Virus record (IMG/VR): IMGVR_UViG_3300047550_002778
Location: 1-64,000 of that record
Length of the DNA stretch: 64,000 nt
Reading direction: 5' to 3' (one strand)
Source of the DNA: a virus
The notes beneath the pieces were generated by a model. The model saw nothing but the letters and a program-made list of their open reading frames with translations, was not told the DNA's origin and made no database searches. This document shows positions 2,369-38,203 of the stretch, piece after piece (the stretch's first letter is position 1; every line of letters starts with the position of its first letter). Both the position numbers and the translations under genes were made by a program.

Positions 2369-2633
2369 ATAATTTGGTTATTTTGACCACAAGCTTACCA
2401 GATCCTTTGATGACCCTATGGTAAGTTTCTTTAGGTATAAATATTGATCCTTTCAACAAAACAGGCAGTTTATTGTCCAATTGGACCTCCCAGTTGCCAC
2501 TATTATCCACTGCCTCAACCAGCCTGTCTTCTTTGTCTAAATGCCACTCTAATTCGTGCGAATCAACATCTTTGTCAAACTCACGAATATACACATTGTT
2601 GCCTAACGAAGACTGTTTATATGGATGACTCAT
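2352..2633 (-). CDS. small cupin-like protein
   Basis: The 93-residue product fits a single small beta-barrel of the cupin type. It has a 'HELEWHLDKEDR' segment (about residues 26-37), a later glycine turn, and 'IFIPKETYHRVIKGSGKL' (about 65-82), placing His residues where cupins bind a metal. Short proteins of this form recur as conserved hypotheticals in marine T4-like phages. No substrate can be inferred. The start overlaps the stop of the upstream gene (ATGA), so it belongs to the same transcription unit as the putative head-packaged protein before it. Confidence 0.6.
   Translation of the reverse strand: MSHPYKQSSLGNNVYIREFDKDVDSHELEWHLDKEDRLVEAVDNSGNWEVQLDNKLPVLLKGSIFIPKETYHRVIKGSGKLVVKITKLYGSKG
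2436..2444 (-). promoter_or_regulatory. ATATTTATA element upstream of the small gene/HAD pair
   Basis: The minus strand reads ATATTTATA inside the cupin-like gene, about 68 bases before the 2368 start codon. Similar spacing is seen before gp6 and before the 46752 gene. Candidate internal promoter. Confidence 0.3.
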
Positions 2634-3904
2634 TGTAACTTTTTAGCCAATAATTTTTTCAAGATCTCCATTAACTTTGTCTCTTTTTTGATCAATTGGT
2701 CCAATGGAACGCCTCTAAACTTCTGTCTTATTTGTGCAATAGGCATACCATATTGTTTTTCAGCTTGAGCAATCAGATTGTATCTATCTTGTTTCTCTTT
2801 TTCTAAAGATGCCAATTTACGAGCAACTACAGTAGCAACAGTATTCTTAATGTTATCATTATAATACTTCTCACCCGATACCAAAAGATCATTCAATATT
2901 TTAATTTCTACTTCTAACCCATTTACTTCTTTTTCTAAATTATCCTTTTCAGCAGGCGTAAGTTTCGCTCCTGTTGTATGAAGTTTTCCTCTCTTTTCAA
3001 TAAACTCTTGAGTCTTATCATCAATTACTTTTTCCAAACTAGGTTGTTGTTGTATTTTCTCAACTCCCCAAGCAGGATAATCAAATTCACTACCAATCGG
3101 TGTAGTGGACAAATCACTATCAGTTACCTTTATTGTTACATTATTACCTTTAATAGCCGTAACATCAGCTCTTATACCAAGTCCTAGGATTTTTATTTTG
3201 TCACCTACTTTGAATTCAACATCTGCTTTATCCGTAACAGATGGTTTAGGTGGAGGAGTTTCTTTCTTAGGTTCTTCTTTGTCATACAGTTCATTGTATG
3301 ACCTTATTTTGCTACCAATTTCATACAAACACTCAGTTGGATTATATCCATTAAACTCTATGACTTTTTCATATTGATCTTTGTATGGCGTTACCTTGTC
3401 TTTATTATAATCCCAGAATGTTACAATGATAGCTTTACCACTCGGGATTGTGCTTTCAATTTGAAGATCCAAATTTTCTGGCGGTTTACCATCTGTATTG
3501 TCTACCTCAAAGATTCTACCTTTCATGATAGGATCTGAATATGCGCCCATTCTACCCAATCCCTTTAGAATATTTTCCAAATCCAAATGACCACCACCAT
3601 TATTACTAGCCTTTAATCGTTTGATACCTTTTTGGGCCCAATAATCCAATTGTTCTCTCTTATTAGAATCATACTTTATTTCCGGAGCGTCTTCTAATTC
3701 TTTGATTTCTTTTAATACATCACTATCATCTGAGTAAAATTCTTTCTTGTTGTCGCTATATCCAAATATTGACTTTTTACCACTCTTGTCGTCTTTATAA
3801 ACAAAAAAAGCACATCTGTTGGCCGGAGAAGTGTAGTTATACAACTTTCTCTTGTAACTAACAGTGTCAGGATTTTCCACCAAAATATCAATTAGTTTAA
3901 CCAT
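2630..3904 (-). CDS. hypothetical protein with capsid-targeting-like N terminus
   Basis: The 424-residue product begins MVKLIDILVEN, matching the T4 capsid-targeting pattern (MKTYQEFIAE): about ten residues ending in L/I-x-E, the prohead-protease cut site. The rest is lysine- and glutamate-rich. Residues about 215-285 contain a small KOW/SH3-like segment ('VGDKIKILGLGIRADV' followed by 'GNNVTIKV'). A long charged coiled coil fills roughly 290-424, including the ending 'LIKKETKLMEILKKLLAKKLQ' read in part. No enzyme motif was recognised. I infer a protein of the head interior, cleaved after Glu10 and perhaps injected. It lies between two small genes that share operon overlaps. Confidence 0.5.
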   Translation of the reverse strand: MVKLIDILVENPDTVSYKRKLYNYTSPANRCAFFVYKDDKSGKKSIFGYSDNKKEFYSDDSDVLKEIKELEDAPEIKYDSNKREQLDYWAQKGIKRLKASNNGGGHLDLENILKGLGRMGAYSDPIMKGRIFEVDNTDGKPPENLDLQIESTIPSGKAIIVTFWDYNKDKVTPYKDQYEKVIEFNGYNPTECLYEIGSKIRSYNELYDKEEPKKETPPPKPSVTDKADVEFKVGDKIKILGLGIRADVTAIKGNNVTIKVTDSDLSTTPIGSEFDYPAWGVEKIQQQPSLEKVIDDKTQEFIEKRGKLHTTGAKLTPAEKDNLEKEVNGLEVEIKILNDLLVSGEKYYNDNIKNTVATVVARKLASLEKEKQDRYNLIAQAEKQYGMPIAQIRQKFRGVPLDQLIKKETKLMEILKKLLAKKLQ

Positions 3905-3909
3905 AAATT

Positions 3910-4512
3910 TTACCAGTATTTTCCTTTACCCTTGTTTCCTAAACTACGAATACGATGACTACGGCAACTCCAGTAACCAGCTGTAGTTCTATCTTTCTTT
4001 TGACTACATCTGTGACGTGCGGCAAAACTTTTACGACGAGCCTTGTTACCAGCTCTACTTCTCATATTAGGATCACCAAAAGTTACCTTCTTTACATTGC
4101 CGTTTTTTGATTTGACATACACAGCATACTTCTTTGGACCGCCTGGAGTTCTGAATGGTCTATTGAGATGAACAGTGCGACCTCTATGTTTCAACTCCAT
4201 GATCAAATCCTCAACAACCTCAATAGGCGCATCAAGATACACTTCACGACCTTCAAACATCTCTTTTTTACCCAAATCACTCTCGACTAATTCGGCATCT
4301 GAATCACACAGTTCGATCTTGTTTTCAAAATATAATTTACGAACTTCTTCCAATAATTCAAAATATGATTCACTGTAGGTTCTGAAGATGGTCTCTGATA
4401 AAGGTAGTTGTTTAGTTAAATGATACTTAAGATTGTCACTAACAGACACATCTTCAGTCAATGACATCCCACACAATTCATCACTTTCAATAAGATCGTT
4501 TAATTTAATCAT
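3910..4512 (-). CDS. conserved phage protein with basic Cys-containing C-terminal domain (DUF5872-like)
   Basis: The 200-residue product begins MIKLNDLIES, another capsid-targeting-like leader with an L-x-E site. Its C-terminal 90 residues form a domain I recognise from many T4-like phages: 'PGGPKKYAVYVKSKNGNVK', 'TFGDPNMRSR', then 'ARHRCSQKKDRTTAGYWSCR'. The spacing of the two cysteines and the strongly basic tail suggest nucleic-acid binding. The DUF5872 label is from memory and should be checked. The middle (about 20-110) is acidic and helical. I infer a head-associated protein carried with the DNA. Confidence 0.55.
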   Translation of the reverse strand: MIKLNDLIESDELCGMSLTEDVSVSDNLKYHLTKQLPLSETIFRTYSESYFELLEEVRKLYFENKIELCDSDAELVESDLGKKEMFEGREVYLDAPIEVVEDLIMELKHRGRTVHLNRPFRTPGGPKKYAVYVKSKNGNVKKVTFGDPNMRSRAGNKARRKSFAARHRCSQKKDRTTAGYWSCRSHRIRSLGNKGKGKYW

Positions 4513-4515
4513 AGA

Positions 4516-4524
4516 TATAAATAT
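4516..4524 (-). promoter_or_regulatory. ATATTTATA start-proximal element
   Basis: ATATTTATA on the minus strand ends four bases before the ATG of the 3910-4512 gene and touches the stop codon of the preceding lipoprotein gene. Same element as elsewhere in the window. Confidence 0.35.
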
Positions 4525-5453
4525 TATTTACCATACTTGTTCGTAGCCCTTAATTCACTAATTAGAATTTTTTCTGGGTCATTCAAATTCTTCTCCAATT
4601 CAATAAATAATTCATCTAAAGTATACTTTTTATCGGTTCTTTGTTGAATCTGTCGTAAACGGTCAATTGTATCAACAACACTATCCAATGTATCTTTGTA
4701 TCGGTTGAATACAGGCAGTTCAATGTGTTTACTGAATTCCATTGACTTTGGAGCAATACCTTTAAGTATATTAATAAAGAATGCGATTACATGTTCTACT
4801 AACGAGAATATCGCACCAGCAATTGGGTTTGTAGCAGCTAAGAATCGTAACACCATGAAACATATCAAGAATATCAATATGCCAGTCACACCTATAGTCA
4901 CGAATCTTTTTAGTCCATACATTACACCACCAAGACCCATCCAACTATTCACTTCATCAACAGTAACTTGCAATCTATCAGCCTTTTTCGCCACTTGAGA
5001 AGCCTGTTCTTCCAAACCTTTAATCTGAGACTCATATACATCTTCTATTTCTTTTTGTCGAGTTTGAAGATCCAATATTTCAGTATCTTTTTCTTTTAAC
5101 AGTTTTACACCTTTATCTTTTTCTTTATCAATTTCACTGTTTAAAAGATCAGTTATTTGTTTTATTTTGTTCAATTCGTCAATATTTGGATTACCAGCAA
5201 TACTCAATATTCTAGAATTATAATCCAAAGCAGTCTTGACTTGAACTGGAGGATTGGTCACAGACTTCAATGAATACTCTGTGCCAGCAGCCAAAGTAGA
5301 AACCTCTTGTAACTTTTCTTCATCGTTTTTTGCCTTTTCTACGCGGGTTACTGCAAGTGCATCTTTGGTCTTTTGAACCTTATCTGCATTTGGTGTTTTG
5401 CAACCGCCGAACAACAACAAAGAAGCCAAAAATAGCATTAATGTTTTTTGCAT
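4524..5453 (-). CDS. lipoprotein with coiled coil and membrane segment; spanin-like candidate
   Basis: The 309-residue product starts with a lipoprotein signal peptide (MQKTLMLFLASLLLFGGC; lipobox Cys18). A charged periplasmic-type stretch and a coiled coil follow (about 90-170, many E/K/Q heptads). A strong membrane helix lies at about 183-207 and a second hydrophobic segment at about 208-232. A roughly 75-residue charged C terminus remains. An outer-membrane lipid anchor, a coiled coil and an inner-membrane helix in one chain is the plan of unimolecular spanins, which fuse the two membranes at lysis. However, classical u-spanins end at the membrane helix, and this protein is longer. No holin or endolysin is adjacent. 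Alternatives are a superinfection-exclusion or other envelope protein. Confidence 0.5.
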   Translation of the reverse strand: MQKTLMLFLASLLLFGGCKTPNADKVQKTKDALAVTRVEKAKNDEEKLQEVSTLAAGTEYSLKSVTNPPVQVKTALDYNSRILSIAGNPNIDELNKIKQITDLLNSEIDKEKDKGVKLLKEKDTEILDLQTRQKEIEDVYESQIKGLEEQASQVAKKADRLQVTVDEVNSWMGLGGVMYGLKRFVTIGVTGILIFLICFMVLRFLAATNPIAGAIFSLVEHVIAFFINILKGIAPKSMEFSKHIELPVFNRYKDTLDSVVDTIDRLRQIQQRTDKKYTLDELFIELEKNLNDPEKILISELRATNKYGK

Positions 5454-5458
5454 ATACC

Positions 5459-5467
5459 TATAAATAT
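5459..5467 (-). promoter_or_regulatory. ATATTTATA start-proximal element
   Basis: The nonamer lies five bases upstream of the lipoprotein gene start, in the short divergent gap shared with the plus-strand mom-like gene. Confidence 0.35.
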
Positions 5468-5520
5468 CTATCTTAGTATAAAAACTTGTTTATTTATCTG
5501 GGTTGGTATATACTGATAAT

Positions 5521-6294
5521 ATGTCTAATTATTGTGATACTTCATTAGTTTATCTGCAGCCGATCAACAAGTCGGTAGCACGTAATCTTATTGAAAAAAA
5601 TCACTATACACACAAGTGGACCAGTTGTTCAGTGGCATATGGTGTTTATTATAAAGACTATATAGAAAGTAGTTTTTTTGGTGGATTTGACAGTAAATTG
5701 ATAGGAGTATTGGTCTATGGTAATGCTGTAGGACGTAATTCAAGCACCAGTATTAGTCCACTATTAACCAATGATAATGTATTTGAATTGACACGTTTAT
5801 GGATACAAGATGGTTTTGGCAAGAACATAGAGAGTTTTTGTATAGCTGAAAGTTTTAGGTATTTAAACCGAGATTATCCAAAAATTAAGTGTATTTTGAG
5901 TTATGCTGACAGCGAAGTTGGCCATGCTGGAACCATCTATCAAGCCACTGGATTTTTATATCAGGGTGACAATTATGTTGATATTGCATTGATGCCCAAC
6001 TACAGTGTAAGTCTTGACGGTCCACCTAAATACAATTGGATTCACAGTAGAAATGTGTATAGTAGATGGAAAACACACAATGTAGACAAGTTAAAAGAAC
6101 GTATTGGTAAAACCTTCTGGCGTAAACGTGAAAGTGGCAAACATCGTTATATCAAGTTCATTAGTAACAAGATTGACAACAAAAAGTTGACCAAATCATT
6201 AATACATAAATTACTTCCATATCCAAAAACTACATCATTTACAGAAGAAATAATGGAAGTTACCGTCAAAAATACCAATCAATTTTTCCAATAA
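5521..6294 (+). CDS. mom: Mom-like DNA modification protein (GNAT fold)
   Basis: The 257-residue product carries the hallmarks of the phage Mu Mom family. These are an N-terminal 'NLIEKNHYTH' segment, 'LIGVLVYGNAVGR', 'VFELTRLWIQDG', and the signature 'LSYADSEVGHAGTIYQATGF' at about residues 137-156. In Mu, Mom converts adenine to N6-carbamoylmethyl-adenine in DNA and so blocks many restriction enzymes. The likely role here is protection of phage DNA. I chose the ATG at 5521; the longer reading would need a TTG six codons earlier. The gene is on the plus strand, opposite its neighbours. It has its own AT-rich leader and ends in a hairpin terminator, so it is probably transcribed separately. 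No com-like translational activator was seen nearby. Confidence 0.8.
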   Translation: MSNYCDTSLVYLQPINKSVARNLIEKNHYTHKWTSCSVAYGVYYKDYIESSFFGGFDSKLIGVLVYGNAVGRNSSTSISPLLTNDNVFELTRLWIQDGFGKNIESFCIAESFRYLNRDYPKIKCILSYADSEVGHAGTIYQATGFLYQGDNYVDIALMPNYSVSLDGPPKYNWIHSRNVYSRWKTHNVDKLKERIGKTFWRKRESGKHRYIKFISNKIDNKKLTKSLIHKLLPYPKTTSFTEEIMEVTVKNTNQFFQ

Positions 6295-6295
6295 A

Positions 6296-6325
6296 AAACC
6301 CACCAGCCTTTCGACTGATGGGTTT
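6296..6325. terminator. bidirectional hairpin terminator between mom-like and capsid genes
   Basis: An 11-base stem (6296-6306 with 6315-6325, one mismatch) closes an 8-base loop. On the minus strand it is followed by TTTTTT, ending the capsid transcript. On the plus strand it is followed by a looser T-rich run. It separates two convergent genes. Confidence 0.8.
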
Positions 6326-6351
6326 ATTGTTTTAATTTAGACTAATCCAAA

Positions 6352-8082
6352 TTATACGGTGTCTAGATCAGCGATCAAGACCTTACCATAGAACTCAGGA
6401 CGCACTACCTTCTTAGCGTAGCGAGTCATCACACCACGGCGTGGAGTGAAGTTCACTGGATCATAGACCAATGGAGTTTGGATGAGTGGGATGTATGGAG
6501 CATACACAGCACCAGTCTCCAAGAAGTTGCTACCACGGAAACCAACGAGGATAGCATTATCGGTCATGTATGGGTTCTTGTAAACTTGGAAGCGACTTGC
6601 GAAGCTACCAACACGGCTTACACCCATTGCGAACTTAGCTTGGTCACCGTCAGTGTTCACAACATATCCTGGGATTGATTCCAAGATGGTTGCTACGTCT
6701 GGGGAACATACCAAGAAGTTAGCACCACCACGTAGAGTCAATTGGTGAATCTTGTTAGAGACCTTTTGGATCTTGTTACCAAGAGTTTGGAACCAAGTGC
6801 TCTTTACGTAAGCAGTTCTGTTTGGAGAAGCATTTACGTTACGAGTGAATGATGCAACATCAGTAGTGTTGTTGATGGTCTTAGTGAATTCAGTTCCGAT
6901 TTGGGCGGACCAAGCTTCAGTGGTTTGACCAGTTACAGACTCGTTCAACATGTCTAGGATTTCGAGATCGATTTCCATAGAAACATATTCACTCAATAGA
7001 GCAGTAAGTTCTGCTTCTGCGTCAATAGAATGATATGCGTTCAAGTCTTGAGCCAATTCTGGGGTCCAGACAGCCTTCAACTTACGGGTCTTAGCAACGA
7101 TTGGTTCGCTCTTAAGTTCCAAGTTGACTTCTGGGATCTTGATGTCAGTGCCGATAGATTGGGTATAGACGTTGTTAGCAACACCAGAACCTTCACCAGC
7201 GGTCTTACCGTCTTCGAAGTCACCACGGAGGTTGTCCGAAGGTTGAACTGTGTAGTTCAAACGTGCAGTAGTAGATGGAGCAGCAGCACCAGCAGATTGA
7301 CTTACGAACAAGTTAATTTGATAGTATGGGTTTGCCAAGCTACCAGTGTTAACTGCGGTTGCGTAAGTGTTCAATACTGTGTAAGCTACACCAGAACTGT
7401 TTTGAACTTGGAATGAACGAACAGCGTTCAAATCAGCGTTCCAGATGTTACCAGAACCAGGATTTGCTTCGGTGTTGTCGTCAAGGTTGAATGTCACCTT
7501 GTAAACGCCTGGAACGTTACCAGAACCGTTTACAGAAGCACTGAATGTTGAATCGAATTGAAGATCGTTCCAACTTGCAGTAGCAACCAATACAGTAGCA
7601 TTAGAGCTAGAAACGGTGCGCTCAGAATAAGCGTAACGTCCTTGGCCATAAAGACCATTTACTGGTGCATCAGTTGATCCAAGCTTCTTTTGGTTACCAC
7701 CGAACAAGCTTTCGCCAGCACGATGACCCAATTGAGTGCCAGAACCATACTTGAAGTCTAAGTAGAAGATAAGACCGCTTGGGAGATTCATTGGTTGAAC
7801 CGATACGAATTCCTTAGCAGCGATCTCAGCAAATACACGACGAACCAATGGTAGAGCAACGCCTGCCCATTGTTCACTGTTTGCGCTGGTTCCAGTTGTT
7901 GAAGCTTCGTCCAACAATTGTTTTGCTTGATTTTCCAAGAGGATTGACATGTGTGCCTTTTCAACACCGGTGGTGTTTTCTAGAAGACCTGTCTTTTCCC
8001 ACTTGCTTTGAAGACCACGGGTTTCAGCCATTAGCTTTGCCTGTGGGTTCATATTATTTGTTAGTAGACTCTTTACGTCCAT
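6352..8082 (-). CDS. 23: major capsid protein, gp23-like
   Basis: The 576-residue product is the T4-type HK97-fold major capsid protein. The N-terminal about 60 residues are helical and charged, with several prohead-protease sites (LLE at about 33-35 and 48-50, LDE at 57-59). They are followed by 'WAGVALPLVRRVFAEIAAKEFVSVQPMNLPSG', read in parts, which is the conserved start of the mature protein. 'LNAYHSIDAEAELTALLSEY' and 'VCSPDVATILESIPGY' are further conserved blocks. In T4, gp23 is cut by gp21 at an I/L-x-E site during head maturation; LDE59 is the likely site here. A strong Shine-Dalgarno (AGGAAA) lies at about 8090-8096. The gene follows the scaffold gene and ends in a terminator, as expected of the most highly expressed late gene. 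No separate vertex gene 24 was seen in the window. Confidence 0.93.
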   Translation of the reverse strand: MDVKSLLTNNMNPQAKLMAETRGLQSKWEKTGLLENTTGVEKAHMSILLENQAKQLLDEASTTGTSANSEQWAGVALPLVRRVFAEIAAKEFVSVQPMNLPSGLIFYLDFKYGSGTQLGHRAGESLFGGNQKKLGSTDAPVNGLYGQGRYAYSERTVSSSNATVLVATASWNDLQFDSTFSASVNGSGNVPGVYKVTFNLDDNTEANPGSGNIWNADLNAVRSFQVQNSSGVAYTVLNTYATAVNTGSLANPYYQINLFVSQSAGAAAPSTTARLNYTVQPSDNLRGDFEDGKTAGEGSGVANNVYTQSIGTDIKIPEVNLELKSEPIVAKTRKLKAVWTPELAQDLNAYHSIDAEAELTALLSEYVSMEIDLEILDMLNESVTGQTTEAWSAQIGTEFTKTINNTTDVASFTRNVNASPNRTAYVKSTWFQTLGNKIQKVSNKIHQLTLRGGANFLVCSPDVATILESIPGYVVNTDGDQAKFAMGVSRVGSFASRFQVYKNPYMTDNAILVGFRGSNFLETGAVYAPYIPLIQTPLVYDPVNFTPRRGVMTRYAKKVVRPEFYGKVLIADLDTV

Positions 8083-8089
8083 AATATTA

Positions 8090-8096
8090 TTTCCTA
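8090..8096 (-). promoter_or_regulatory. ribosome-binding site of the capsid gene
   Basis: The minus strand reads TAGGAAA about eight bases before the ATG at 8082. It fixes the start and shows that the host uses Shine-Dalgarno initiation. Confidence 0.7.
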
Positions 8097-8127
8097 TCTT
8101 TTGGTTTGTTAATTACTCGCAAACAAA

Positions 8128-9204
8128 TTACTTCTTGATTCCTGCGAGTTTTTGGAATCTTGAAGCCATCACATCAGCTTGAGGTTCTACAATCGTAGAC
8201 TCAGGCTTTGTGCTGGATACTGGTTTGCTTGCCAAACCTTCGGTGATAGTTGTGACAGTCGCATTTGACTTTTTCTTGGCGACTGATCCACCGGCATTAA
8301 ATGATTCGGCCAAAACGGTGTATGCCAACTTGATTTCACGCAATGTCTTGGTGAGATCAAATGTATTGATGACCTTCAACTTTTGGTCTTCGGTCAAATT
8401 CTTACCCTTGAATAGCTTATTGGTATAAAGCAATTTAGCATTCAAAAGATTGGTTTCTTCAAGAACACCCTTCAAATACTTAACGGTGTTTTGATGTTCC
8501 TTCAATTGATTCTTCAATGCTTCATTTTCTTCATTAATAGCTACCAAAGCTTCTGCCATTTCTTCAGCAGTTACTTCTTCCTCTTCCATTGGAGAAGGAA
8601 CTTGTCCAGCAACTGGTGCTACTGGAGCTGGTGCTGCAGCTGGAGCAGCTGCGGCTGGTGCTGGTGCTGGTGCTGGTGCTGTTGGATCAACAGCAGCTGG
8701 AGCTGGAGCTGGAACTTGTCCTTCTTCTTCCAATTCAGCAAGAAGTTCATCAAGATCAACAGTTTCTGCTGAATCGTCGTCTGCAACTTCTTCTTCTTCA
8801 GCAACAACTTCTTTTTGTTCTTCTTTGTCGCCTTCTTGTTCCAACTCAGCAAGAATTTCATCCAACTCTTCGCTGGTCAACTCTTCACCTTCTTCAAGTT
8901 TTGCATCGAATTCTTGAGATCCAGGTGGAACAGTGTTTTTCTTGGCTGCGGTTGATGGTTGAACAACGTGTTGACTGCTTACAGTGTTACCGTCGTCTTT
9001 ACCAATACCTGAAGAAGAAAGTTTTTCTTCAATCTTACCTTCTTCAGTTTTTTCTGTGTCTGCTGCTTCTTCCTTGAGTTTTTCTGCGAACATTTCTTTC
9101 ATGCTCTTTGCGAAGTTTTCCTCAAGAAAAGTTTTTGCATTAGCAATTGCAGTTTCACGAACTGCTTTTGCGTCTGCGATGCTTTCTTTTAATAGATCGC
9201 TCAT
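8128..9204 (-). CDS. 22: prohead core scaffolding protein, gp22-like
   Basis: The 358-residue product is acidic and mostly helical. It begins MSDLLKES (an L-x-E site), has long Glu-rich stretches at about 50-75 and 100-160, and a low-complexity Ala-Pro linker at about 163-205. The C-terminal coiled-coil domain contains 'LLNAKLLYTNKLFKG', 'EDQKLKVINTFDLTKTLREIK' (read in part) and ends 'ASRFQKLAGIKK'. These C-terminal blocks are typical of T4-like gp22. The protein forms the core around which the capsid assembles and is then degraded by the prohead protease. It lies between the protease and capsid genes, as in T4. A Shine-Dalgarno AGGAAAGG at 9215-9222 supports the start. Confidence 0.88.
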   Translation of the reverse strand: MSDLLKESIADAKAVRETAIANAKTFLEENFAKSMKEMFAEKLKEEAADTEKTEEGKIEEKLSSSGIGKDDGNTVSSQHVVQPSTAAKKNTVPPGSQEFDAKLEEGEELTSEELDEILAELEQEGDKEEQKEVVAEEEEVADDDSAETVDLDELLAELEEEGQVPAPAPAAVDPTAPAPAPAPAAAAPAAAPAPVAPVAGQVPSPMEEEEVTAEEMAEALVAINEENEALKNQLKEHQNTVKYLKGVLEETNLLNAKLLYTNKLFKGKNLTEDQKLKVINTFDLTKTLREIKLAYTVLAESFNAGGSVAKKKSNATVTTITEGLASKPVSSTKPESTIVEPQADVMASRFQKLAGIKK

Positions 9205-9357
9205 ATTAATTTTACCTTTCCTGTTTGTTTTTTGGTGAAGTTATTGGAGAACTCCAAAGAAGATTGAATTTGTAGTGGCATCAAAGACATTGACGCATTT
9301 GATAATAAATATAATATAAAATATACAAATTCATTTTTTTTTAATATTTATTGATAT
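9205..9357. other. divergent intergenic region (153 bases)
   Basis: The largest gap in the window separates the minus-strand scaffold gene from the plus-strand DUF3008-like gene. It holds the scaffold Shine-Dalgarno (9215-9222) and very A/T-rich stretches around 9300-9345. An ATATTTATT element precedes the plus-strand gene. No RNA gene or hairpin was recognised. It probably carries promoters for both directions. Confidence 0.5.
9344..9352 (+). promoter_or_regulatory. ATATTTATT start-proximal element on the plus strand
   Basis: This is the same element as before the minus-strand genes, in coding orientation on the plus strand, five bases before ATG 9358. Its switch of strand with the gene argues that it belongs to gene expression and is not a strand composition effect. 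Confidence 0.4.
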
Positions 9358-9966: not shown

Positions 9967-10321
9967 AACACTATACAGTCAAGCAAAATTAAACAGTTTC
10001 TTAAATAAAGCAAAAGATCAAGAAATTGAGCCTGACAAATTTAAACTAATAGAAATTGATCATCCAAATGGTTGGAACTTCAATGAAATAGATACATTGG
10101 GTGATATGGGATTTAAAATTGACAACGATACCGATATGGTATGTGAAGTTGAAATTCCCACACTAGAAATGATGGAAGAAAAAGTTCCAGTTAGAGTATA
10201 TAAAAACGAAAACGGTTATGTCCTTGAGACTAACCGTCAATACGTTTTTGAGAGTTTTGAAAAGATGATTGAATTTATCGATTCAATACCATCTGATCCA
10301 AAAATGAGACATGTTAAATAA
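9956..10321 (+). CDS. hypothetical protein paired with the DUF3008-like gene
   Basis: The 121-residue product, MDYKTLYSQAKLNSFLNKAK..., is acidic and soluble, with no signal or membrane segment. I chose ATG 9956, which has an AGGA eight to twelve bases before it and overlaps the upstream gene by 11 bases. An in-frame codon at 9938 gives six more residues. Its stop lies two bases from the stop of the convergent 10324-10869 gene. Beyond partnership with the DUF3008-like protein no role can be inferred. Confidence 0.55.
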   Translation: MDYKTLYSQAKLNSFLNKAKDQEIEPDKFKLIEIDHPNGWNFNEIDTLGDMGFKIDNDTDMVCEVEIPTLEMMEEKVPVRVYKNENGYVLETNRQYVFESFEKMIEFIDSIPSDPKMRHVK

Positions 10322-10323
10322 TC

Positions 10324-10869
10324 TTACTTATTTGATTGATATGGTGGTTGTTGATGTGGTTGAGTAATAGGTTGAGCACCAGCCAATTCTTTATTTTCTA
10401 CTGCTGTTCCCCAAGCGGTTGGGTCTGGTGGACTTGCAACACTTACTGAACCTTGATGATCTTGAGTTTGAAATGCTTGAGGAGCTTCTGTTACTGGATC
10501 TGCAATTTCAAAATAACGTTCCAACTTCAAACCAATTTCTTCATAAAGCATTTCAAGTTGATGTTCAACACCTTTGATTTTGTTTGCTTCTTCATACAAT
10601 TGACGTGCCATTTTCTTGACTTCTTTCATGTCACGTTCAATCATTTTAGCTTCCATCCATTCATCGCATTCTTTCAAAGCATAACGTTCTGCCAAATTTA
10701 CTGCTTCCATAATCTTAGTAGCAGTAGCATAAATACACTCTGCCTTTAAATCTTTACGGTATTCGTTATATGCTTTGACGGTCTCACGAAGTTTGACTTT
10801 TTCTTCTTTAGTCAAAGGAGCATATGCTGTTTCAGTAGAATTTTCTACAAGATGTTTTAGCTTAATCAT
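10324..10869 (-). CDS. putative prohead core protein with capsid-targeting-like leader
   Basis: The 181-residue product begins MIKLKHLVENS (L7-V8-E9, a prohead-protease site). A highly charged helical body follows at about 20-125, with a Pro/Gln-rich tail at about 130-181. The gene lies between the protease and scaffold genes, where T4-like phages carry small core proteins. The start is the ATG at 10869; the reading from 10875 would use TTG. I infer an internal head or core protein processed by the gp21-like protease. No sequence identity to a named core protein was recognised. Confidence 0.55.
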   Translation of the reverse strand: MIKLKHLVENSTETAYAPLTKEEKVKLRETVKAYNEYRKDLKAECIYATATKIMEAVNLAERYALKECDEWMEAKMIERDMKEVKKMARQLYEEANKIKGVEHQLEMLYEEIGLKLERYFEIADPVTEAPQAFQTQDHQGSVSVASPPDPTAWGTAVENKELAGAQPITQPHQQPPYQSNK

Positions 10870-10873
10870 ATAC

Positions 10874-10882
10874 AATAAATAT
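10874..10882 (-). promoter_or_regulatory. ATATTTATT start-proximal element
   Basis: The element ends four bases before ATG 10869 on the coding strand and lies in the short gap after the protease gene. Confidence 0.3.
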
Positions 10883-10890
10883 ATTTAAAA

Positions 10891-11490
10891 TTACAATTCA
10901 GAGATAATGTTATGAATAATTCTCTCTATATTGTTATATGGGTTAATAATTTTATTTTCTACGCTTTCATTGATTTTACCTTGTGGATACATGAAAGCTC
11001 CTTGTGTAGAAGGATTACTTACAAAATCAAATGCGATCAAGTCAAAATCATCTTGAACAACATCCGCACCTTCTCTCATATCCTTTTTAACACTGCCCAA
11101 TCCACGACTACTGATGCCCAAAAGAATACCAGCTTTTAATAAATCTTTCAAAATATTACCACTTGGGGTTGGCAATATTTCTACGGTTCCTACCAAGTCG
11201 TCACCATCCCAACCCATATCTACAATGTTATGACTAACATTCTTTAAGTTAACGACGCTACTTTCTGGATGATCTAACTCACCCATTGCACGACGTTGTT
11301 TAACAAAATTATCCATATACTTTGTTGCTTCACGTTCCAAAATAGTCTTAGGATAAACACGACCGTTTTGGTTTTTTGCATCTGCACGTTGTAAAGTGCC
11401 GGTCACAAGTAGTTTACCATTGTTCAACGACTCATTGAGTGATGTTTTTTTAAATTCAAATGGTAATACGTCAATTAATACTGTTTTCAT
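10891..11490 (-). CDS. 21: prohead maturation protease, gp21-like
   Basis: The 199-residue product is the T4-type prohead serine protease. Conserved features are 'GTLQRADAKNQNGRVYPK' (about 31-48), the catalytic His in 'MGELDHPESS' (His74), and the catalytic Ser in 'GISSRGLGSV' (Ser127/128). 'FDLIAFDFVSNPS' lies at about 148-160. The family cleaves core and shell proteins after L/I-x-E. The enzyme has such sites in itself: LNE at 18-20, and INE in the C-terminal 'GKINES'. This is consistent with self-processing during maturation. It lies in the head operon between core genes. Its predicted specificity is what makes the L-x-E leaders elsewhere in this window meaningful. Confidence 0.9.
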   Translation of the reverse strand: MKTVLIDVLPFEFKKTSLNESLNNGKLLVTGTLQRADAKNQNGRVYPKTILEREATKYMDNFVKQRRAMGELDHPESSVVNLKNVSHNIVDMGWDGDDLVGTVEILPTPSGNILKDLLKAGILLGISSRGLGSVKKDMREGADVVQDDFDLIAFDFVSNPSTQGAFMYPQGKINESVENKIINPYNNIERIIHNIISEL

Positions 11491-11491
11491 A

Positions 11492-12622: not shown

Positions 12623-13478
12623 TGGCAAGTTTATTCAATTCTTCAATCAATTCATAAGCGCTTAAAAGACTGGTCAAATGATTTTCTTTTACTACACCTG
12701 TGATTGTTTTATTTGAAAGTTGAGAAACAGTTTCGTTGAGTTTGATCTTAATAATATCACTCTTTACCAATATTGCTCTTTCCTTAAGAACATCTGCAAC
12801 ACGTTTATACTCTTTATTAACAAATTCAGTGAACTTGTTAGTATTTGATACGTTTGTAATATATTCTTTTAACAACGCTTTTTGCGAAGGCAACAAAGAC
12901 GAATACTTTTTGTTGAAGTTTTCGATCAAGAACTTATATGCGAGTAACTTCACTTCGGCTGGTTGAGAACTATATACATCCAAAGCTTGTTCTTCGTTCT
13001 TTCTTTCCTTTGTTAAATTTTCTACTACAAATTCTCTTGCTTCTAAAATTTCTTCAACATCAAACTTTACGTCATCTGAACTTTGATTTTCAAACAACTT
13101 ATAAACAGAAGCATACAATTTATAATTTGGAATTTTATTTTTCAAAAATTCATCAATGTTAAATTTTTCTTTGATCTCTTTTACTAAATTATATTTTTGA
13201 TTATTTAAATCACGTTCATTAATTTTAGAACGTGTTTGTAATACCACATTCAAAATACGATCAGCAGACTCAGAATTTTTTGAAGATTGACTAATAATAA
13301 AATTATAAAGTTGAAACTCTTTTCCGAGCGCAGTTCCTTCGTTGAAGTATTTGAACATCAAGTTCTTGGTGAATGACTCATCACGACCTGCCAAAATATC
13401 TGCGGTAATTTGTCGAGTTAGTAATTCAAACAATACTCCGCTATTCTTAAACTTCGAATGTTTAGCTTTCTTGCGCAT
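12606..13478 (-). CDS. conserved head-operon protein downstream of portal
   Basis: The 290-residue product begins MRKKAKHSKFKNSGVLFELLTRQIT, read in part. The rest is almost entirely helical and charged, without a signal, membrane segment or enzyme motif. The 'KNSGVLFELLTRQITADIL' opening is one I associate with conserved proteins placed after the portal gene in marine T4-like phages. It overlaps the next gene by about 17-23 bases. The position suggests a core or head-assembly role (gp67/gp68 locus), but there is no direct motif for this. Confidence 0.5.
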   Translation of the reverse strand: MRKKAKHSKFKNSGVLFELLTRQITADILAGRDESFTKNLMFKYFNEGTALGKEFQLYNFIISQSSKNSESADRILNVVLQTRSKINERDLNNQKYNLVKEIKEKFNIDEFLKNKIPNYKLYASVYKLFENQSSDDVKFDVEEILEAREFVVENLTKERKNEEQALDVYSSQPAEVKLLAYKFLIENFNKKYSSLLPSQKALLKEYITNVSNTNKFTEFVNKEYKRVADVLKERAILVKSDIIKIKLNETVSQLSNKTITGVVKENHLTSLLSAYELIEELNKLANEKAS

Positions 13479-13494
13479 ATAGTTCTCTATTAAT

Positions 13495-13503
13495 TATAAA
13501 TAT
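13495..13503 (-). promoter_or_regulatory. ATATTTATA element
   Basis: The element lies 17 bases upstream of the 13478 start on the coding strand. A T4-orientation TATAAATA lies further upstream at 13527-13534, so both orientations occur in this one gap. Confidence 0.35.
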
Positions 13504-13526
13504 GTTAAAAAATTAAAAATCATCGG

Positions 13527-13534
13527 TATTTATA
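13527..13534 (-). promoter_or_regulatory. T4-type late promoter core (TATAAATA)
   Basis: The minus strand reads TATAAATACC here, about 49 bases before the 13478 start. TATAAATA is the T4 late promoter core recognised by the gp55 sigma with gp33/gp45. A gp55-like gene is present in the window. Confidence 0.45.
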
Positions 13535-15505
13535 TCATTCTTTGAGATTTGTTTCATCCATATAAGACCCCGAGACGCCTTCTCTCAAAATTTCCTTTGA
13601 TTTATCAATATTTTGTAAAATCGCACTCAACGAATCCATCGACTCTAAAGATAGTGGCGAACGTTTTTTATATTTATGACTTGGCGACAAATCTGGTTTA
13701 CTATCCAACTCTAATGTGCCCAATGGATCCTCTCCAAAAGCATATTTTCTAGCTTTTTTCCTACCAGTTTGATCACGATCTCGTTCTTCTTCTTTTTTAC
13801 GAGCAGCTTCTTCACGTTCATGCGCAGACATCTTTACCTTTTCAGTTAATTTCGGAGCTTCTCCACCACCTGTTGGAGCAGCAGCGCCGGCTTCAGTGCC
13901 ACCTCCTGTTTCTCCTCCACCTTCAGCACCTCCACCGGCGCCACTCTCTTCCCCACCTCCAGCGCCACCCTCTGAACCCCCACCTTCTCCACCTTCTTCA
14001 GCGCCTTTGGCTTTTAGGAAATTTAATGCGGGATCGTTGCCTTCTTCTTCAATTTGTTTGAAGCGATACATACCCTTAGCATCATCCACTAGTTGTTTTT
14101 GTAACACAATCATGTCTTGGTCACTCATACCAAACACTTTTTCATATATCCACTTTTTACTAAACAACTTTTGCTCTTGCATGTCCTTACTGACTTCCAC
14201 CTTACTCTTCCAAACATCAATCTTTTCTTTTTCAAATATTGTAGATGGATTAGTCAATTCAAGACTAAAGTCAACAAGTGAATCATCACGATAACCTTGA
14301 CTATACAAATGAACCACAGCAATCTTATTTAACTCACTAACAATAATACGTTGAACACGTTCAATTGTTCTTGAAAAGCGAATATCTTCAGCTGCTAGTG
14401 TTGCTTTACCACTTAGACTTTCATCATATCCCAAGAATGCTTTTGGAATCTTAAGTGCTGCCATCATCTTATTACGAAGATACTCAATGTCATCTGTGCC
14501 AGTCCATTCAAGACCAGGCAAATTATCAATACTTGTTCCACTATCTCCACCACGAACTGGCAAGAAAAAATCTTCAACCATGTTTTGCAGATTGAAACGA
14601 AGATTATAATCACCAGTTGCTTGATCCAAATATGGAGTTTTTTTCATTTGTTGAATAATACGTTCCATATGATTATCAACTTCATTTGGCGGAATATTAC
14701 CGATATCAACTTTGAAAATACGTTTTTCTGGAGCACGCATAATACGATGAATTAACATTGCGTCTTCCATCAAACTCAATTGTTTCCATACACGACGAGC
14801 ACCTTCCAACATACTCTTACCATATGGCAAGAAGTTACTATCACTCAACAAACGAAAATGTGCCATTTGATAATTTTCAAGATCTTCAATTTTGTTACCA
14901 TATGGAAGATTAACTTGAAATTTAACAAAGCTCTTATTTTGTAGATGAGCATTTTCTACACGGGTCACATAATATGAACTTAGAGGTTCTACCATGTATA
15001 CACCATATTCTGGACTGATGTGTAATCTCAAATAAAAATCACCATACTTAACCATACTACGAGTCCAAGACCAAAGATTGAATTCGATGTTAAGAATGTC
15101 ATAAAACAAATTATTTAATACACTCTTAATATCATCATTTGAGCTTTTAACAGTAATGATCTCACCCAATTCATTTCGGGTTGTGCATTCGTCTGCATAA
15201 ATGTCCAAAGCGGATGCCAAAATTGGATCCATATCCATTGTATCATAATCTCTAAACAACTCTACACGGCTACTTTGATAACTTAAATTAAAGTCTCTGG
15301 TATATTGATTATAAGCAGTGGTTCTAAGACGATTAAAACGATCTCTTAGACTATTACGATCTGTAGCATAAAAAATTTCATCCGTATCAATGACCTTGAG
15401 TTTTTTGCCACCTACGTTGCGAACAATTACGTCATTGCTGAAAAGTCTTTTCAGTCTTGCGTAAAGTGACCTATTTTTTAACTCTTGAAATGATTTGTCA
15501 TCCAT
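13535..15505 (-). CDS. 20: portal protein, gp20-like
   Basis: The 656-residue product matches T4-like portals. It has 'YDTMDMDPILASALDIYADECTTRN' read in part (about 88-112), 'WSWTRSMVKYGDFYLRL' (about 143-160), 'MVEPLSSYYVTRVEN', 'RIMRAPEKRIFKVDIGNIPP', and 'MMAALKIPKAFLGYDESLSG', the conserved crown-side block. The dodecameric portal is the DNA entry vertex and docks the terminase. The C-terminal about 170 residues are unusual: a Gly/Glu-rich low-complexity stretch (about 505-560) and a basic, charged tail. The gene lies 25 bases after the terminase gene, so packaging proteins are made together. Confidence 0.93.
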   Translation of the reverse strand: MDDKSFQELKNRSLYARLKRLFSNDVIVRNVGGKKLKVIDTDEIFYATDRNSLRDRFNRLRTTAYNQYTRDFNLSYQSSRVELFRDYDTMDMDPILASALDIYADECTTRNELGEIITVKSSNDDIKSVLNNLFYDILNIEFNLWSWTRSMVKYGDFYLRLHISPEYGVYMVEPLSSYYVTRVENAHLQNKSFVKFQVNLPYGNKIEDLENYQMAHFRLLSDSNFLPYGKSMLEGARRVWKQLSLMEDAMLIHRIMRAPEKRIFKVDIGNIPPNEVDNHMERIIQQMKKTPYLDQATGDYNLRFNLQNMVEDFFLPVRGGDSGTSIDNLPGLEWTGTDDIEYLRNKMMAALKIPKAFLGYDESLSGKATLAAEDIRFSRTIERVQRIIVSELNKIAVVHLYSQGYRDDSLVDFSLELTNPSTIFEKEKIDVWKSKVEVSKDMQEQKLFSKKWIYEKVFGMSDQDMIVLQKQLVDDAKGMYRFKQIEEEGNDPALNFLKAKGAEEGGEGGGSEGGAGGGEESGAGGGAEGGGETGGGTEAGAAAPTGGGEAPKLTEKVKMSAHEREEAARKKEEERDRDQTGRKKARKYAFGEDPLGTLELDSKPDLSPSHKYKKRSPLSLESMDSLSAILQNIDKSKEILREGVSGSYMDETNLKE

Positions 15506-15529
15506 ATAGTGCTATCTTATATATAAGTA

Positions 15530-17143
15530 TTACAACAACCAAGTTAGTGATTCTTTTTTACCTGTTCCAGTCTGCCCATGACTTCCAGCATCAAATTTCC
15601 ACGTTTCTTGAGGCGACTGTATGATTTTATATTGTGATGCTGGACCGGGTGTTGTATTAGTTACTTTTTTTATTCCCCCCAGCATAGTTTTTGTATAAGC
15701 CATTTGTTCCGTTCTTAACTTTAATGCGGTCCCACGCACCCATAAACCAATACTCAATGCCATTACTAAATCGTCATTATACCCTTTCATTGCTTCTGGC
15801 TTGGGTCCATTCCATATAAACACATTTAGCTCCTCGTAGAGTCTTATAGACTTGATTACGACCGATTTGTCTCTAAAGCAAGACTCCATGTTACTGACCA
15901 TCAAAGGTCTATTTTTGTTAGTTGTAGTAAATCCAGGCACCAATTTCTTGTCTTGAGTGTTCAGTTTATTGGTGTATGTATGTTCTACATCAACTACATT
16001 CAAATCTGGAGAACTGTAGAATGTATTTTTATAATCTCTATCAATGATTTGTTGAAGTGTTCCCCAACCAATATTATTATTTTCTACAATCAACAAAGCA
16101 TTGTTATACTCGGTGGCAATAGATACCAACAGATTACCATAATCTTTGGTAGTTAGTTGACCTTTATACTCCGCAACTTGTTCTAGTGTTTCTACATCAA
16201 ATATATGAAATGCACTATAGTCAGCGCCATCACCTCTAGCACAATCAGCAGTCACTATATAATTTTTGCTATAATCTGGTCGATCCCATATCCATAAATC
16301 TTGTGTTGCTCCTCTACGTTCGACCGGCTCTTTTATATGAGTTTGTTTATAAAATTCAAGGGTATCAACACTAACAACTTGATTACCAGATGTAGAAAAG
16401 TCACAATCACATTCTTGTGCAGCACCCTTTACACCAGACAATTCTGTTTGTCTATCACGCCAAGCTTGATCACGTTCTGGATGTAAATACCAAGGCAATT
16501 TAATGGTATTAAACCCATTTTCACCAGCCTCAGCAGCAACCCAAGTTTTGTGAAAGAAGTTACCAACACCATTTGGAGTAGACAATAGAATAGCTCTACC
16601 ACCAGTTGATAACGTATATTGAGCAGACAACCAGATTTCTTCAATGCCATCAATGAATGCCGCTTCGTCAATGATTAGAAGTGACAAAGCAGCAGAACGG
16701 CCTGCAGTTCCAGCACTACTTACCGCCTTAATTTGTGATCCATTCTTTAATCTTAAACTCAATCTGTTGTCTTCAATACACGGAACCTTTAACCATGTAG
16801 GAAGATTATCATTGGCAAATCTGACCTTGGTAACGATTTCTTTTGCCGTTTCTTGAGTAATACTGATGATCAAAATGTTTTTATCAGTATGAAATGTCAT
16901 CAACCATAAACTATATGCCGCTGTCAGTGTAGAAATGCCCATCTGACGACTTTTCAAAATGATGTTCAGATTTTTATCAACCAAATCTTGAAGAGCTTCT
17001 TCTTGAAAAGCATATAAATCAAAGTTACAAGTGCCTTTTACTGGATGTTGAATCTTTACATACTTCTTCATGAAGTATATTGGATTCTCAAGACACTTTT
17101 TATACTCCTGCTTTATTATTTCTCTTAGATTTTGCTGACTCAT
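15530..17143 (-). CDS. 17: terminase large subunit, gp17-like
   Basis: This is the packaging motor: an ATPase plus a headful nuclease. With the start at 17143 the product has 537 residues. The Walker A-like loop is 'KSRQMGIST' (about 64-72), Walker B is 'LLIIDEAAF' (about 155-163), and the coupling motif is 'LLSTPNG' (about 188). The nuclease aspartate lies in 'TADCARGDGADYS' (Asp about 300), the Glu in 'LIVENNNIG' (about 351), and the last Asp pair in 'GYNDDLVMA' (about 454). All catalytic positions are present. I chose ATG 17143 because a GGAAC lies just upstream and the conserved domain begins soon after; ATG 17194 would add 17 residues. The start region overlaps the upstream zinc-ribbon gene. 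Confidence 0.94.
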   Translation of the reverse strand: MSQQNLREIIKQEYKKCLENPIYFMKKYVKIQHPVKGTCNFDLYAFQEEALQDLVDKNLNIILKSRQMGISTLTAAYSLWLMTFHTDKNILIISITQETAKEIVTKVRFANDNLPTWLKVPCIEDNRLSLRLKNGSQIKAVSSAGTAGRSAALSLLIIDEAAFIDGIEEIWLSAQYTLSTGGRAILLSTPNGVGNFFHKTWVAAEAGENGFNTIKLPWYLHPERDQAWRDRQTELSGVKGAAQECDCDFSTSGNQVVSVDTLEFYKQTHIKEPVERRGATQDLWIWDRPDYSKNYIVTADCARGDGADYSAFHIFDVETLEQVAEYKGQLTTKDYGNLLVSIATEYNNALLIVENNNIGWGTLQQIIDRDYKNTFYSSPDLNVVDVEHTYTNKLNTQDKKLVPGFTTTNKNRPLMVSNMESCFRDKSVVIKSIRLYEELNVFIWNGPKPEAMKGYNDDLVMALSIGLWVRGTALKLRTEQMAYTKTMLGGIKKVTNTTPGPASQYKIIQSPQETWKFDAGSHGQTGTGKKESLTWLL

Positions 17144-17747
17144 ATTTTTGTTCCAGATCTGTGATAAACCCATCAATTTCAGCCAATCTGGCATTTACAA
17201 CATCTAAATCTTTTATAACGTCCTCTTTTATCTTCAATAGACCATCTGAGTTTTCCCATTTCTCTATAGAACCATCTTCATTAATAAACTCAAGTGGTTT
17301 GTTTTCATTGTTTTTACACCAATCAAGAGTTTCATCAAACTTCTTTTTATAATCAATCAACAATGATTTTTCATTTTTAAGATCTCTAATTTTATCAAAA
17401 TATTCCCAAGTTCCATCCATTTTCATTTGGGTTTCAATTTTTATAAAACAATCATAACACAACTGAGTTTTTGGCCACACTTGATCATCTAAATAATTAC
17501 CCCATCTAACATCCGCATTACATTCTTTACATATTTTGGTGTTAATGATTGTCGCCTTTCTTGGAACTCTACGTTTGGCGCCATTTTTCCATATCCATTT
17601 ACGACCTTGACCATCTTCCCACTCGTCGCCTTCTTTACGCTTAGCATTATCTAAATTTGAATCATAACCTACTTGAACGAATGGTCTATTACCGTCCAAG
17701 TAATCTTTAATAATTTCAAGATTACTCTTGCCTTGTGCTCTTTTCAT
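17100..17747 (-). CDS. zinc-ribbon and coiled-coil protein preceding terminase
   Basis: The 215-residue product has a basic N-terminal region with 'DEWEDGQGRKWIWKNG' (about 41-56). A four-cysteine zinc ribbon follows (Cys73, Cys76, Cys97, Cys100; 'KICKECNADV'...'LCYDCFIK'). A long coiled coil fills about 110-212. It immediately precedes and overlaps the large terminase gene. The position, the nucleic-acid-binding type ribbon and the oligomerising coiled coil would suit a small-terminase function, but T4 gp16 has no zinc ribbon and I see no sequence match. Other proteins with the W-E-D-G-x-G-R-x-W segment occur in T4-like phages without known role. Confidence 0.5.
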   Translation of the reverse strand: MKRAQGKSNLEIIKDYLDGNRPFVQVGYDSNLDNAKRKEGDEWEDGQGRKWIWKNGAKRRVPRKATIINTKICKECNADVRWGNYLDDQVWPKTQLCYDCFIKIETQMKMDGTWEYFDKIRDLKNEKSLLIDYKKKFDETLDWCKNNENKPLEFINEDGSIEKWENSDGLLKIKEDVIKDLDVVNARLAEIDGFITDLEQKYESAKSKRNNKAGV

Positions 17748-17765
17748 AACAAATATGTATTTATT

Positions 17766-18818
17766 TTATTTACCAAAACCACTTTGTAGTCCTTTAATAA
17801 TGAAACTACCAGTGATTTTATATGGTTTACTGTAAATACTTGGATCTCTCACAACTATACCTTCATGCTTTTCAAGATCCCCAATTTCACTTGTAGCATT
17901 CTTTAGTATTTCATCACCAAGTTTAACAGTAGCAATATATACGATTGTATCATTTATAACTTTATTTATATCTTGACCTTCAAAATCTTGTTCAATATTT
18001 TTACTATTTGATGCTTTGATAAATTGTTCGCGGGTAATCAAAGGAGTCTGAATCGTCACTGTGTTCAACCAATCTTTCAAACTTTTTGTTACTGGTGTTC
18101 CATTTGGATACAATGTTACTTTTTCGCCAAGTGGTTTTGACAAGTTTGGTTTTGTTTTGAATGTTGTATCTACACTACCCAATACTTTAAATCCGTGCTT
18201 CTTCGCAACTAAATTTAATTTATTGATATAACTTTGCATTGCTGCTTTGTCATATGATATTTCGGTAGCCGCACGTGACTTCACACTGCCGTCTTTACCA
18301 AATGTCTTGGGCTTGATTTCTTTTAATCCATGAATAGCAAGAAAGTTACCTATATCACCATAACCCACAACGTTTGTTTGTCCTTCAACATATTCAACGT
18401 TCAACAGAATATTGGGATTATCTAATAAACCTAACTTCTTCAATTCTGATTGTGTAGATGGTATTGCTTCATCAAAAATATTAATAACCTTAGAGCCAAT
18501 TTTTACAAATCCATGTTCTTGTCCAGTTGTAGGATCTGGTTGAAATCTGCCAGGCAAATCTTCTGGCCTCATACCTTTAACATCGAATGCTTTGGCACTA
18601 CCACGATCCATTACAAACTGACCATTCACCAAACGAATACTTGCGTTTACGCCGTCAATCTTTACACTACCAGATCCCTTTTCTAAAGATTTTATTGTCT
18701 TGTTAAACACATCAACAAGTTGTTTACCATTAGAAGCAAAATCAAATGGATGATCCATATGACCACCAGCACCACCTTCATTGATCACTTCAAACAAAAT
18801 TCTACTAAGTTTAATCAT
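17766..18818 (-). CDS. ligase-like nucleotidyltransferase with capsid-targeting leader
   Basis: The 350-residue product begins MIKLSRILFE (L8-F9-E10 as in T4 IAE at 8-10). It then shows motifs of the covalent nucleotidyltransferase (DNA/RNA ligase) fold: motif I KxDG as 'SVKIDGVNASIR' (Lys53), a motif III-like 'LNVEYVEGQ', motif IV as 'KHEGIVVRDP', and a lysine-rich motif V region 'YKITGSFIIKG' near the C terminus. In this fold Lys53 would accept AMP from ATP or NAD. The substrate (nicked DNA or RNA) is not decided by the sequence. The start at 18818 is preferred over 18848 because it places the leader at the N terminus and avoids overlap. Together with the next gene it looks like head-packaged cargo. 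Confidence 0.6.
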   Translation of the reverse strand: MIKLSRILFEVINEGGAGGHMDHPFDFASNGKQLVDVFNKTIKSLEKGSGSVKIDGVNASIRLVNGQFVMDRGSAKAFDVKGMRPEDLPGRFQPDPTTGQEHGFVKIGSKVINIFDEAIPSTQSELKKLGLLDNPNILLNVEYVEGQTNVVGYGDIGNFLAIHGLKEIKPKTFGKDGSVKSRAATEISYDKAAMQSYINKLNLVAKKHGFKVLGSVDTTFKTKPNLSKPLGEKVTLYPNGTPVTKSLKDWLNTVTIQTPLITREQFIKASNSKNIEQDFEGQDINKVINDTIVYIATVKLGDEILKNATSEIGDLEKHEGIVVRDPSIYSKPYKITGSFIIKGLQSGFGK

Positions 18819-18819
18819 A

Positions 18820-19584
18820 TTATTTAATAAATGTTTTTTCAAATACATTCACACCTTTTAGATATGAACTTTTAGTTTCATCAAGCGCATTATCTGTAAA
18901 CTGCCAATTCCAAAACAACGGATCTGGGGTCTTAAATCCGTAAAATTCCAATACACTTTTTTGAGTAGCAGTCACATCAGATCCATTCCAATTTTGACCG
19001 ACTGCAATAAATCCAGCATCAATATTTTTTACTAAATTACTTTCGCCTAATGTTGAATGACGATTTTCAATCCAAGTTAATCGTTCAATTAATTTTTGAT
19101 AGTAACTATTTGCTTGTCCCCATCTAATACTAGCAAAAAATAACACACAGTCACTTTCAAATAGTTCTTTACTGATTTTCCAAAGTTCATCACCTTTTTC
19201 ATTGATACTAGCCCAACAACGATGATGACCACTTGGATTTTGTTCTTTGTTTTTTAATAAAGCACCAATAGTCCCACAATGATTTCCACCAAATTCTTTG
19301 TTACTACTTACATTACCTTCACAAGGAACTATATGTAATTTGGTAGTATCAATAAGTGTTACCTTTTCTTTACCCAATAGATCTTGTATTTTAAGTGCTA
19401 ATTGACTACTTTTAGGCACATCATCTTTATGTTTGACCCATCTATTACTAGTAGTCAACAACAAAACTTTTTTCTTATCACGTAAATAATCAATTGTCTT
19501 TTTGTATTTACGTGCATACAAATCCATATCCTGTTCACTCACAGGCAATTTAGCTTCTAATAAAAGGTCTGAAAGACTAATCAT
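18820..19584 (-). CDS. flavodoxin-fold (NADPH-dependent FMN reductase-like) protein with capsid-targeting leader
   Basis: The 254-residue product begins MISLSDLLLEA (L8-L9-E10), then resembles the flavodoxin-like reductase fold. It has a phosphate-binding loop after the first strand ('VLLLTTSNRW', about 41-50) and a second FMN-loop region 'VLFFASIRWGQANSYYQKLIERL' read in parts (about 148-170). A later strand reads 'DAGFIAVGQNWNG'. This suggests FMN binding and NAD(P)H-dependent reduction, but the cofactor is not proven. Two Cys/His-rich spots ('GGNHCG', 'GHHRCWAS') are unusual for the family. The start is ATG 19584; the longer reading would use TTG. It ends one base before the ligase-like gene begins, so the two are co-transcribed. 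Confidence 0.5.
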   Translation of the reverse strand: MISLSDLLLEAKLPVSEQDMDLYARKYKKTIDYLRDKKKVLLLTTSNRWVKHKDDVPKSSQLALKIQDLLGKEKVTLIDTTKLHIVPCEGNVSSNKEFGGNHCGTIGALLKNKEQNPSGHHRCWASINEKGDELWKISKELFESDCVLFFASIRWGQANSYYQKLIERLTWIENRHSTLGESNLVKNIDAGFIAVGQNWNGSDVTATQKSVLEFYGFKTPDPLFWNWQFTDNALDETKSSYLKGVNVFEKTFIK

Positions 19585-38182: not shown

Positions 38183-38203
38183 AATATTTGTTTATTCACT
38201 ATT

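Follow-up and report, generated by a model that had tools for sequence, protein, structure and literature searches.

In bacteriophage T4, mutants of the internal protein IPIII assign capsid targeting to residues 4 and 7 of the leader and processing by the gp21 protease to residues 8 and 10 (PMC9026906). The first ten residues of T4 gp24 are also taken off by the protease (PMC9958956), and a review has already suggested that capsid targeting lets T4-like phages pack various proteins (PMC9026906). Phage proteins that are injected with the DNA are normally learned by proteomics, one phage at a time. Here, we analyzed a 64-kb stretch of viral DNA (the window; positions 1 to 64,000 of the 77.6-kb record IMGVR_UViG_3300047550_002778) encoding five proteins that begin with nearly the same short leader. 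Sequence comparisons indicate that these proteins very probably carry a clade-specific capsid-targeting propeptide of the form M-I-[KRS]-L-x-x-[LI]-L-x-E, or one residue shorter, which would work like the leader of T4 IPII and IPIII.

A preliminary description of the window had reported five near-identical leaders keeping L at positions 7 to 8 and E at 9 to 10. All five were found at the positions given there, each opening at an ATG codon on the minus strand (starts at 3904, 4512, 10869, 18818 and 19584) and each closed by L/I-x-E. They are MVKLIDILVE (3875 to 3904, followed by N), MIKLNDLIE (4486 to 4512, followed by S), MIKLKHLVE (10843 to 10869, followed by N), MIKLSRILFE (18789 to 18818, followed by V) and MISLSDLLLE (19555 to 19584, followed by A), and they head the proteins encoded at 2630 to 3904, 3910 to 4512, 10324 to 10869, 17766 to 18818 and 18820 to 19584, respectively. 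The leader is all that these proteins have in common, the remainder of their sequences being unlike. The Leu and Ile codons and the 40 bases upstream also differ among the five genes, which argues strongly against a shared or copied DNA element as the origin of the leaders. A possible sixth leader, MKSYSLLYE (followed by R), heads a 137-residue gene of the same contig outside the window (L161 3681-4094, corresponding to about 67,180 to 67,593) and is in the style of the T4 internal proteins (MKTYQEF). The product of this gene and that of L169 2020-2490 were suspected by eye to be ADP-ribosyltransferases, an identity that was dropped for want of a significant profile.

Searching for the pattern M[IV]x[LF]xx[LI](1,2)xE, as proposed in the preliminary description, identified a match at the start of 5 of the 51 window genes and at none of their 224 internal Met residues. 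Shuffling of the N termini (about 4,000 rounds) gave a mean of 0.009 matches and a maximum of 1. In related loci, which were fetched via gp21 and via the protein encoded at 17766 to 18818, the pattern was present at the start of 119 of 875 distinct proteins versus 0 of 4,216 internal Met residues. Scans of whole records returned 36 and 14 matches, whereas the reversed pattern, used as a control, returned 3 and 7. An unbiased search for gapped three-position N-terminal motifs (75,460 patterns in 131 families, with start codons assigned independently of the leader) was topped by I2, a hydrophobic residue at 4, L/I7, L8 and E10. Five of the loci in that search had been fetched for carrying the pattern; positions 2, 4, 7 and 8 still led the ranking when loci were chosen by gp21 only. 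In their predicted mature form, the tagged families were more basic than the others (median isoelectric point [pI] of 8.7 versus 6.9; P = 0.009), and the computed pIs of the T4 internal proteins were likewise basic. Depletion of internal L/I-x-E across the cargo, which was not seen overall, is not usable as extra proof.

The residues conserved in the leaders are those that matter in T4. Alignment of 24 homologues of each of the proteins encoded at 17766 to 18818 and 18820 to 19584 revealed that E10 is invariant and that L4 and L8 are nearly or fully so, with variable residues at positions 5 and 9. The targeting positions, L/F4 and I/L7, are conserved. In the first family, E10 and E14 are invariant and L8 is nearly so; a second L/I-x-E (VINE) ends at residue 14, so the cut could fall at 10 or 14. 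In the second family, L4, D6, L8 and E10 are invariant. The homologues of the protein encoded at 2630 to 3904 keep L8 and E10 (MIRFKDLLLE in L021 and MISLNRLLIE in L166). Other leader styles ending in L/I-x-E were observed in Flavobacterium phage immuto (L159 1-14260) and Methylophilales phage Melnitz (L365 3793-8456), namely, MADNFNLRSFLTE, MENFDLKKFLVE, MQGFKTFLSE and MKKFSEIIE. Each phage lineage may have its own leader consensus.

The gp21-like protease claimed in the preliminary description was confirmed (10891 to 11490, minus strand; Pfam S77 family PF03420, E = 1.3e-30; PHROG 207, E = 7e-54). Its relatives retain an LNE around residue 20 as well as an [IL]xE close to the C terminus. The site of the gp23 major capsid protein (6352 to 8082, minus strand; PHROG 138, E = 9e-70), LL[DT]E followed by A, is invariant in relatives. 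Since the conserved sites of gp21 itself and that of gp23 are L/I-x-E, this motif is the likely specificity of the protease. The minus-strand gene located between gp21 and gp23, in the position of gp22 (8128 to 9204), encodes a scaffold protein with 17 L/I-x-E sites (4.9 per 100 residues), like T4 gp22, and this protein is the presumed docking partner of the leader.

Two of the tagged proteins had been described as looking like enzymes, and sequence evidence supports two enzyme-like cargoes. The 350-residue product of 17766 to 18818 (minus strand) appears to be a ligase- or nucleotidyltransferase-like protein. Its 24 homologues retain ligase-superfamily motifs I (KxDG, K53 to G56) and IV (EG, E319-G320) and a HEG[IM]V motif; the invariant residues are K53-I-D-G56, R72-G-S, E142-Y-V-E-G, H318-E-G, V322 and R324. 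RNA ligases led the VIA list for its structural model (predicted local distance difference test [pLDDT] score of 75.5), with modest Z scores of up to 6.6, and the Foldseek E values, above 0.1, were not significant. The 254-residue product of 18820 to 19584 (minus strand) is predicted to adopt a flavodoxin-like NAD(P)H:FMN/quinone reductase fold (Foldseek E = 9.6e-5; VIA Z of 12.0 over 146 residues; model pLDDT of only 58). This fold starts at about residue 36, and the leader therefore lies in an N-terminal extension. The window protein had no Pfam match, and its L184 homologue matched PF03358 below the cutoff (E = 0.031). Searching solved structures by sequence with these two families returned nothing informative.

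The three other tagged proteins are also encoded on the minus strand. The 424-residue product of 2630 to 3904 (mature pI of 8.1) had no match in Pfam and PHROG searches. The 200-residue product of 3910 to 4512 consists of an acidic half (residues 10 to 105; pI of 4.2) followed by a basic domain (pI of 11.7), with a match to PHROG 7595 on residues 108 to 184. All of its further L/I-x-E sites sit in the acidic portion; the likely mature product is the basic C-terminal half. The 181-residue product of 10324 to 10869, encoded between gp21 and gp22, is acidic (pI of 5.2), helical by look and as dense in L/I-x-E (3.6 per 100 residues) as T4 gp67 and gp68 (3.0 to 3.1). On these features, a prohead core protein is a likelier identity than an ejected protein.

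In relatives, families were clustered on the portions of the proteins located after residue 12. The leader was present in 40 of 45 members of the ligase-like family, 32 of 40 members of the reductase-like family (the remainder being mostly truncated open reading frames [ORFs]) and all 35 members of the putative core protein family, as well as in 6 of 10 and 3 of 3 members of the families of the 200- and 424-residue proteins. Additional tagged families included a 96-residue protein (11 of 13), a 173-residue protein (4 of 7), a J-domain protein (3 of 3; PF00226, E = 2e-9), a CCA-adding enzyme with HD and GP88 domains and a nucleotidyltransferase-like protein, among others. The relatives' gp17, gp20, gp21, gp22, gp23 and sheath families did not carry the tag. 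Tagged genes occupied two islands, in runs of up to five consecutive genes: one island lay between the sheath and terminase genes and the other between gp23 and the neck gene. At L058 1528-2127, the front of the tagged 96-residue gene is fused to the back of the tagged 173-residue gene; tagged genes thus seem to recombine. The nearest isolates by gp21 were Microcystis phage Mel-JY01 (62%) and phage immuto (54%). Both of these cultured phages have tagged genes, located at 60276 to 62718 in Mel-JY01 and at 24569 to 24994 and 103366 to 103806 in immuto, whose host is Flavobacterium sp. LMO8. A DNA-level search of isolates gave no close match, tblastn searches of isolates with the ligase-like and reductase-like proteins gave no homologues, and the 40-kb structural region of S-RIM2 displayed no clear leader set.

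A single consensus, MIKLxDLLxE, was then used to scan viral contigs. At least 129 matches were obtained in at least 120 stretches, and at least 113 coincided with the first ATG in an ORF of 60 residues or more. These tagged ORFs form at least 55 unrelated cargo families. Among the matches listed, recognizable T4-like head or sheath genes were present in 49 of 120 stretches, and a Pfam analysis of 74 tagged proteins identified 11 with Zeta-toxin/AAA-type kinase matches, in addition to ART-PolyVal (2.1e-10), MPTase-PolyVal and other domains. Earlier work, following other lines of argument, had put forward such ADP-ribosyltransferase and peptidase domains as both packaged and injected (PMC5512222, PMC9503650).

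Certain proteins exist with and without the leader. The HAD phosphatase-like protein of the window (1695 to 2234, minus strand) starts with MTKKLRVFDFDD and lacks the leader; its L219 homologue (41% identity over 154 residues) begins with MIKLKDLLLE, followed by KKLRVFDFDD. The 173-residue family is tagged in this clade and untagged in Pelagibacter phage HTVC033P. Such pairs are what a removable address label would predict. The basic domain of the 200-residue protein occurs by itself, and without the leader, in Roseobacter phage CRP-235.

We propose that the short amphipathic leader would bind the scaffold core via its hydrophobic residues 4 and 7 and that the protein attached to it would thereby become trapped inside the prohead. 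Cutting after L/I-x-E by the gp21-type protease would then release the mature protein within the head. The survivors, i.e., the ligase-like, reductase-like and 424-residue proteins and the basic half of the 200-residue protein, would remain with the DNA and probably pass into the host at infection, the 181-residue protein being probably core material.

Several observations weigh against this scheme. The residue following the predicted cut (P1′) is not limited to Ala or Ser, unlike in T4 IPII, IPIII and gp24. A clean L/I-x-E is missing from the usual place in one L065 homologue and in the immuto copy of the 200-residue protein, and some internal L/I-x-E sites in the cargo could be cut too. A literature search for virion proteomics or cleavage data on the clade (immuto and Mel-JY01) found none. 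Finally, the permuted-pattern control of the contig scan (78 matches, 60 of them at first ATGs) was contaminated because its pattern also admits MIKLLDLLLE. Only family diversity and nearby head genes were therefore compared: among the matches listed, the control gave 16 families versus 55 for the consensus, and head genes in 9 of 70 versus 49 of 120 stretches.

The alternative that survives best, although improbable, is that the leader marks prohead core proteins degraded by gp21 and not delivered cargo, the tag serving only as an anchor in the scaffold. The L/I-x-E-rich 181-residue protein and acidic half of the 200-residue protein, which resemble T4 gp67 and gp68, would fit this explanation, but the ligase-like protein has few further sites. 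Moreover, a CCA-adding enzyme, a J-domain protein, kinases and an ADP-ribosyltransferase would be odd scaffold components, and tagged genes vary among relatives as accessory cargo would. We consider it somewhat less probable again that the leader is an uncleaved N-terminal helix docking to a neck, portal or sheath-chaperone complex, with an incidental L/I-x-E. Many tagged genes do adjoin neck, sheath or terminase genes; however, conservation peaks at the P1 Glu and P3 Leu/Ile, with P2 free, which matches the specificity of gp21. An origin by chance, or from a common 5′ DNA element such as a duplicated start region or a translation signal, is very improbable: tagged genes do seem to recombine, as in the L058 fusion, but the differing codons and upstream DNA and the strong statistics argue strongly against it.

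The capsid-targeting propeptide could have a broader role. We lean slightly toward the view that one interchangeable ten-residue propeptide acts as a general tag by which many uncultivated T4-like phages load and deliver tens of effector and repair enzymes, among them ligase-like and CCA-adding enzymes, J-domain proteins, Zeta-type kinases, ADP-ribosyltransferases and a flavin reductase. If so, injected proteins could be listed directly from sequence, and their discovery would become a question of genome mining. The tag would give many unknown late genes likely roles in the first minutes of infection, counter-defence or RNA repair, and would supply additional leaders with which proteins could be directed into phage heads. 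The proposal that contractile-tailed phages commonly package enzymes would also gain independent support from sequence.

Other features of these genomes were recorded. In the window, a Mom-family DNA modification gene (5503 to 6294, plus strand; PF25680, E = 8e-44) is convergent with the late genes, a single 1,062-residue ORF (23746 to 26934) contains SbcD-like (gp47) and SbcC-like (gp46) parts, as judged from sequence, and two tail-region proteins (36374 to 39976) contain long Pro-Thr repeats. The C-terminal part of a 645-residue protein (58941 to 60878) is intein/Hint-like by eye and ends near a VIGHN motif. In several relatives, including L065, L113 and L014, the terminase gene (gp17) is divided into two parts and the gp20 portal gene is much longer, encoding about 1,000 to 1,360 residues, with inserts that are intein-like by eye. 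A prepilin-type N-methylation protein (L161 12682-13353; PF07963, E = 1.1e-7; DUF1559-like), unusual for a phage, is encoded near the end of the contig, which may indicate that this end is chimeric.

Capsid targeting as a principle is known. What appears to be new here is that uncultivated T4-like phages have a distinct consensus and use it very widely, on unrelated proteins that include many enzymes; a search of the open-license literature found no paper describing this consensus and its wide use. Our comparison with the T4 internal proteins covered the leaders and N termini, and the claim concerns the leader and not homology to these proteins. As in T4 IPII and IPIII (MKTYQEFIAE), ten N-terminal residues combine hydrophobic or aromatic residues at 4 and 7, I/L8 and E10, a gp21-type protease is encoded, and the cargo is unrelated and basic. 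In contrast to these proteins, the consensus is MIKLxDLLxE, some leaders are one residue shorter, the cargo families are far more numerous and include many enzymes, and packaging and cleavage are predicted from sequence. The closest T4 leader is the gp24 propeptide (MAKINELLRE), which has the same hydrophobic spacing and is cut after residue 10, although gp24 is a shell protein. T4 Alt (leader MELITELFDE) resembles the tagged enzymes in being a packaged and injected enzyme but is cut elsewhere, with removal of 6 or 7 residues, and is not homologous to the cargo of the window. The head ejection proteins of phiKZ and SPN3US have propeptides that are removed after Glu by a gp21-related protease, and the proteins are ejected (PMC9026906); these phages belong to a different lineage. 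Polyvalent, head-packaged effectors (PMC5512222, PMC9503650) share the ART-PolyVal and MPTase-PolyVal domains and are likewise predicted to be injected; the earlier inference drew on domain fusions and gene context, whereas the candidates described here are single proteins with a common short leader.

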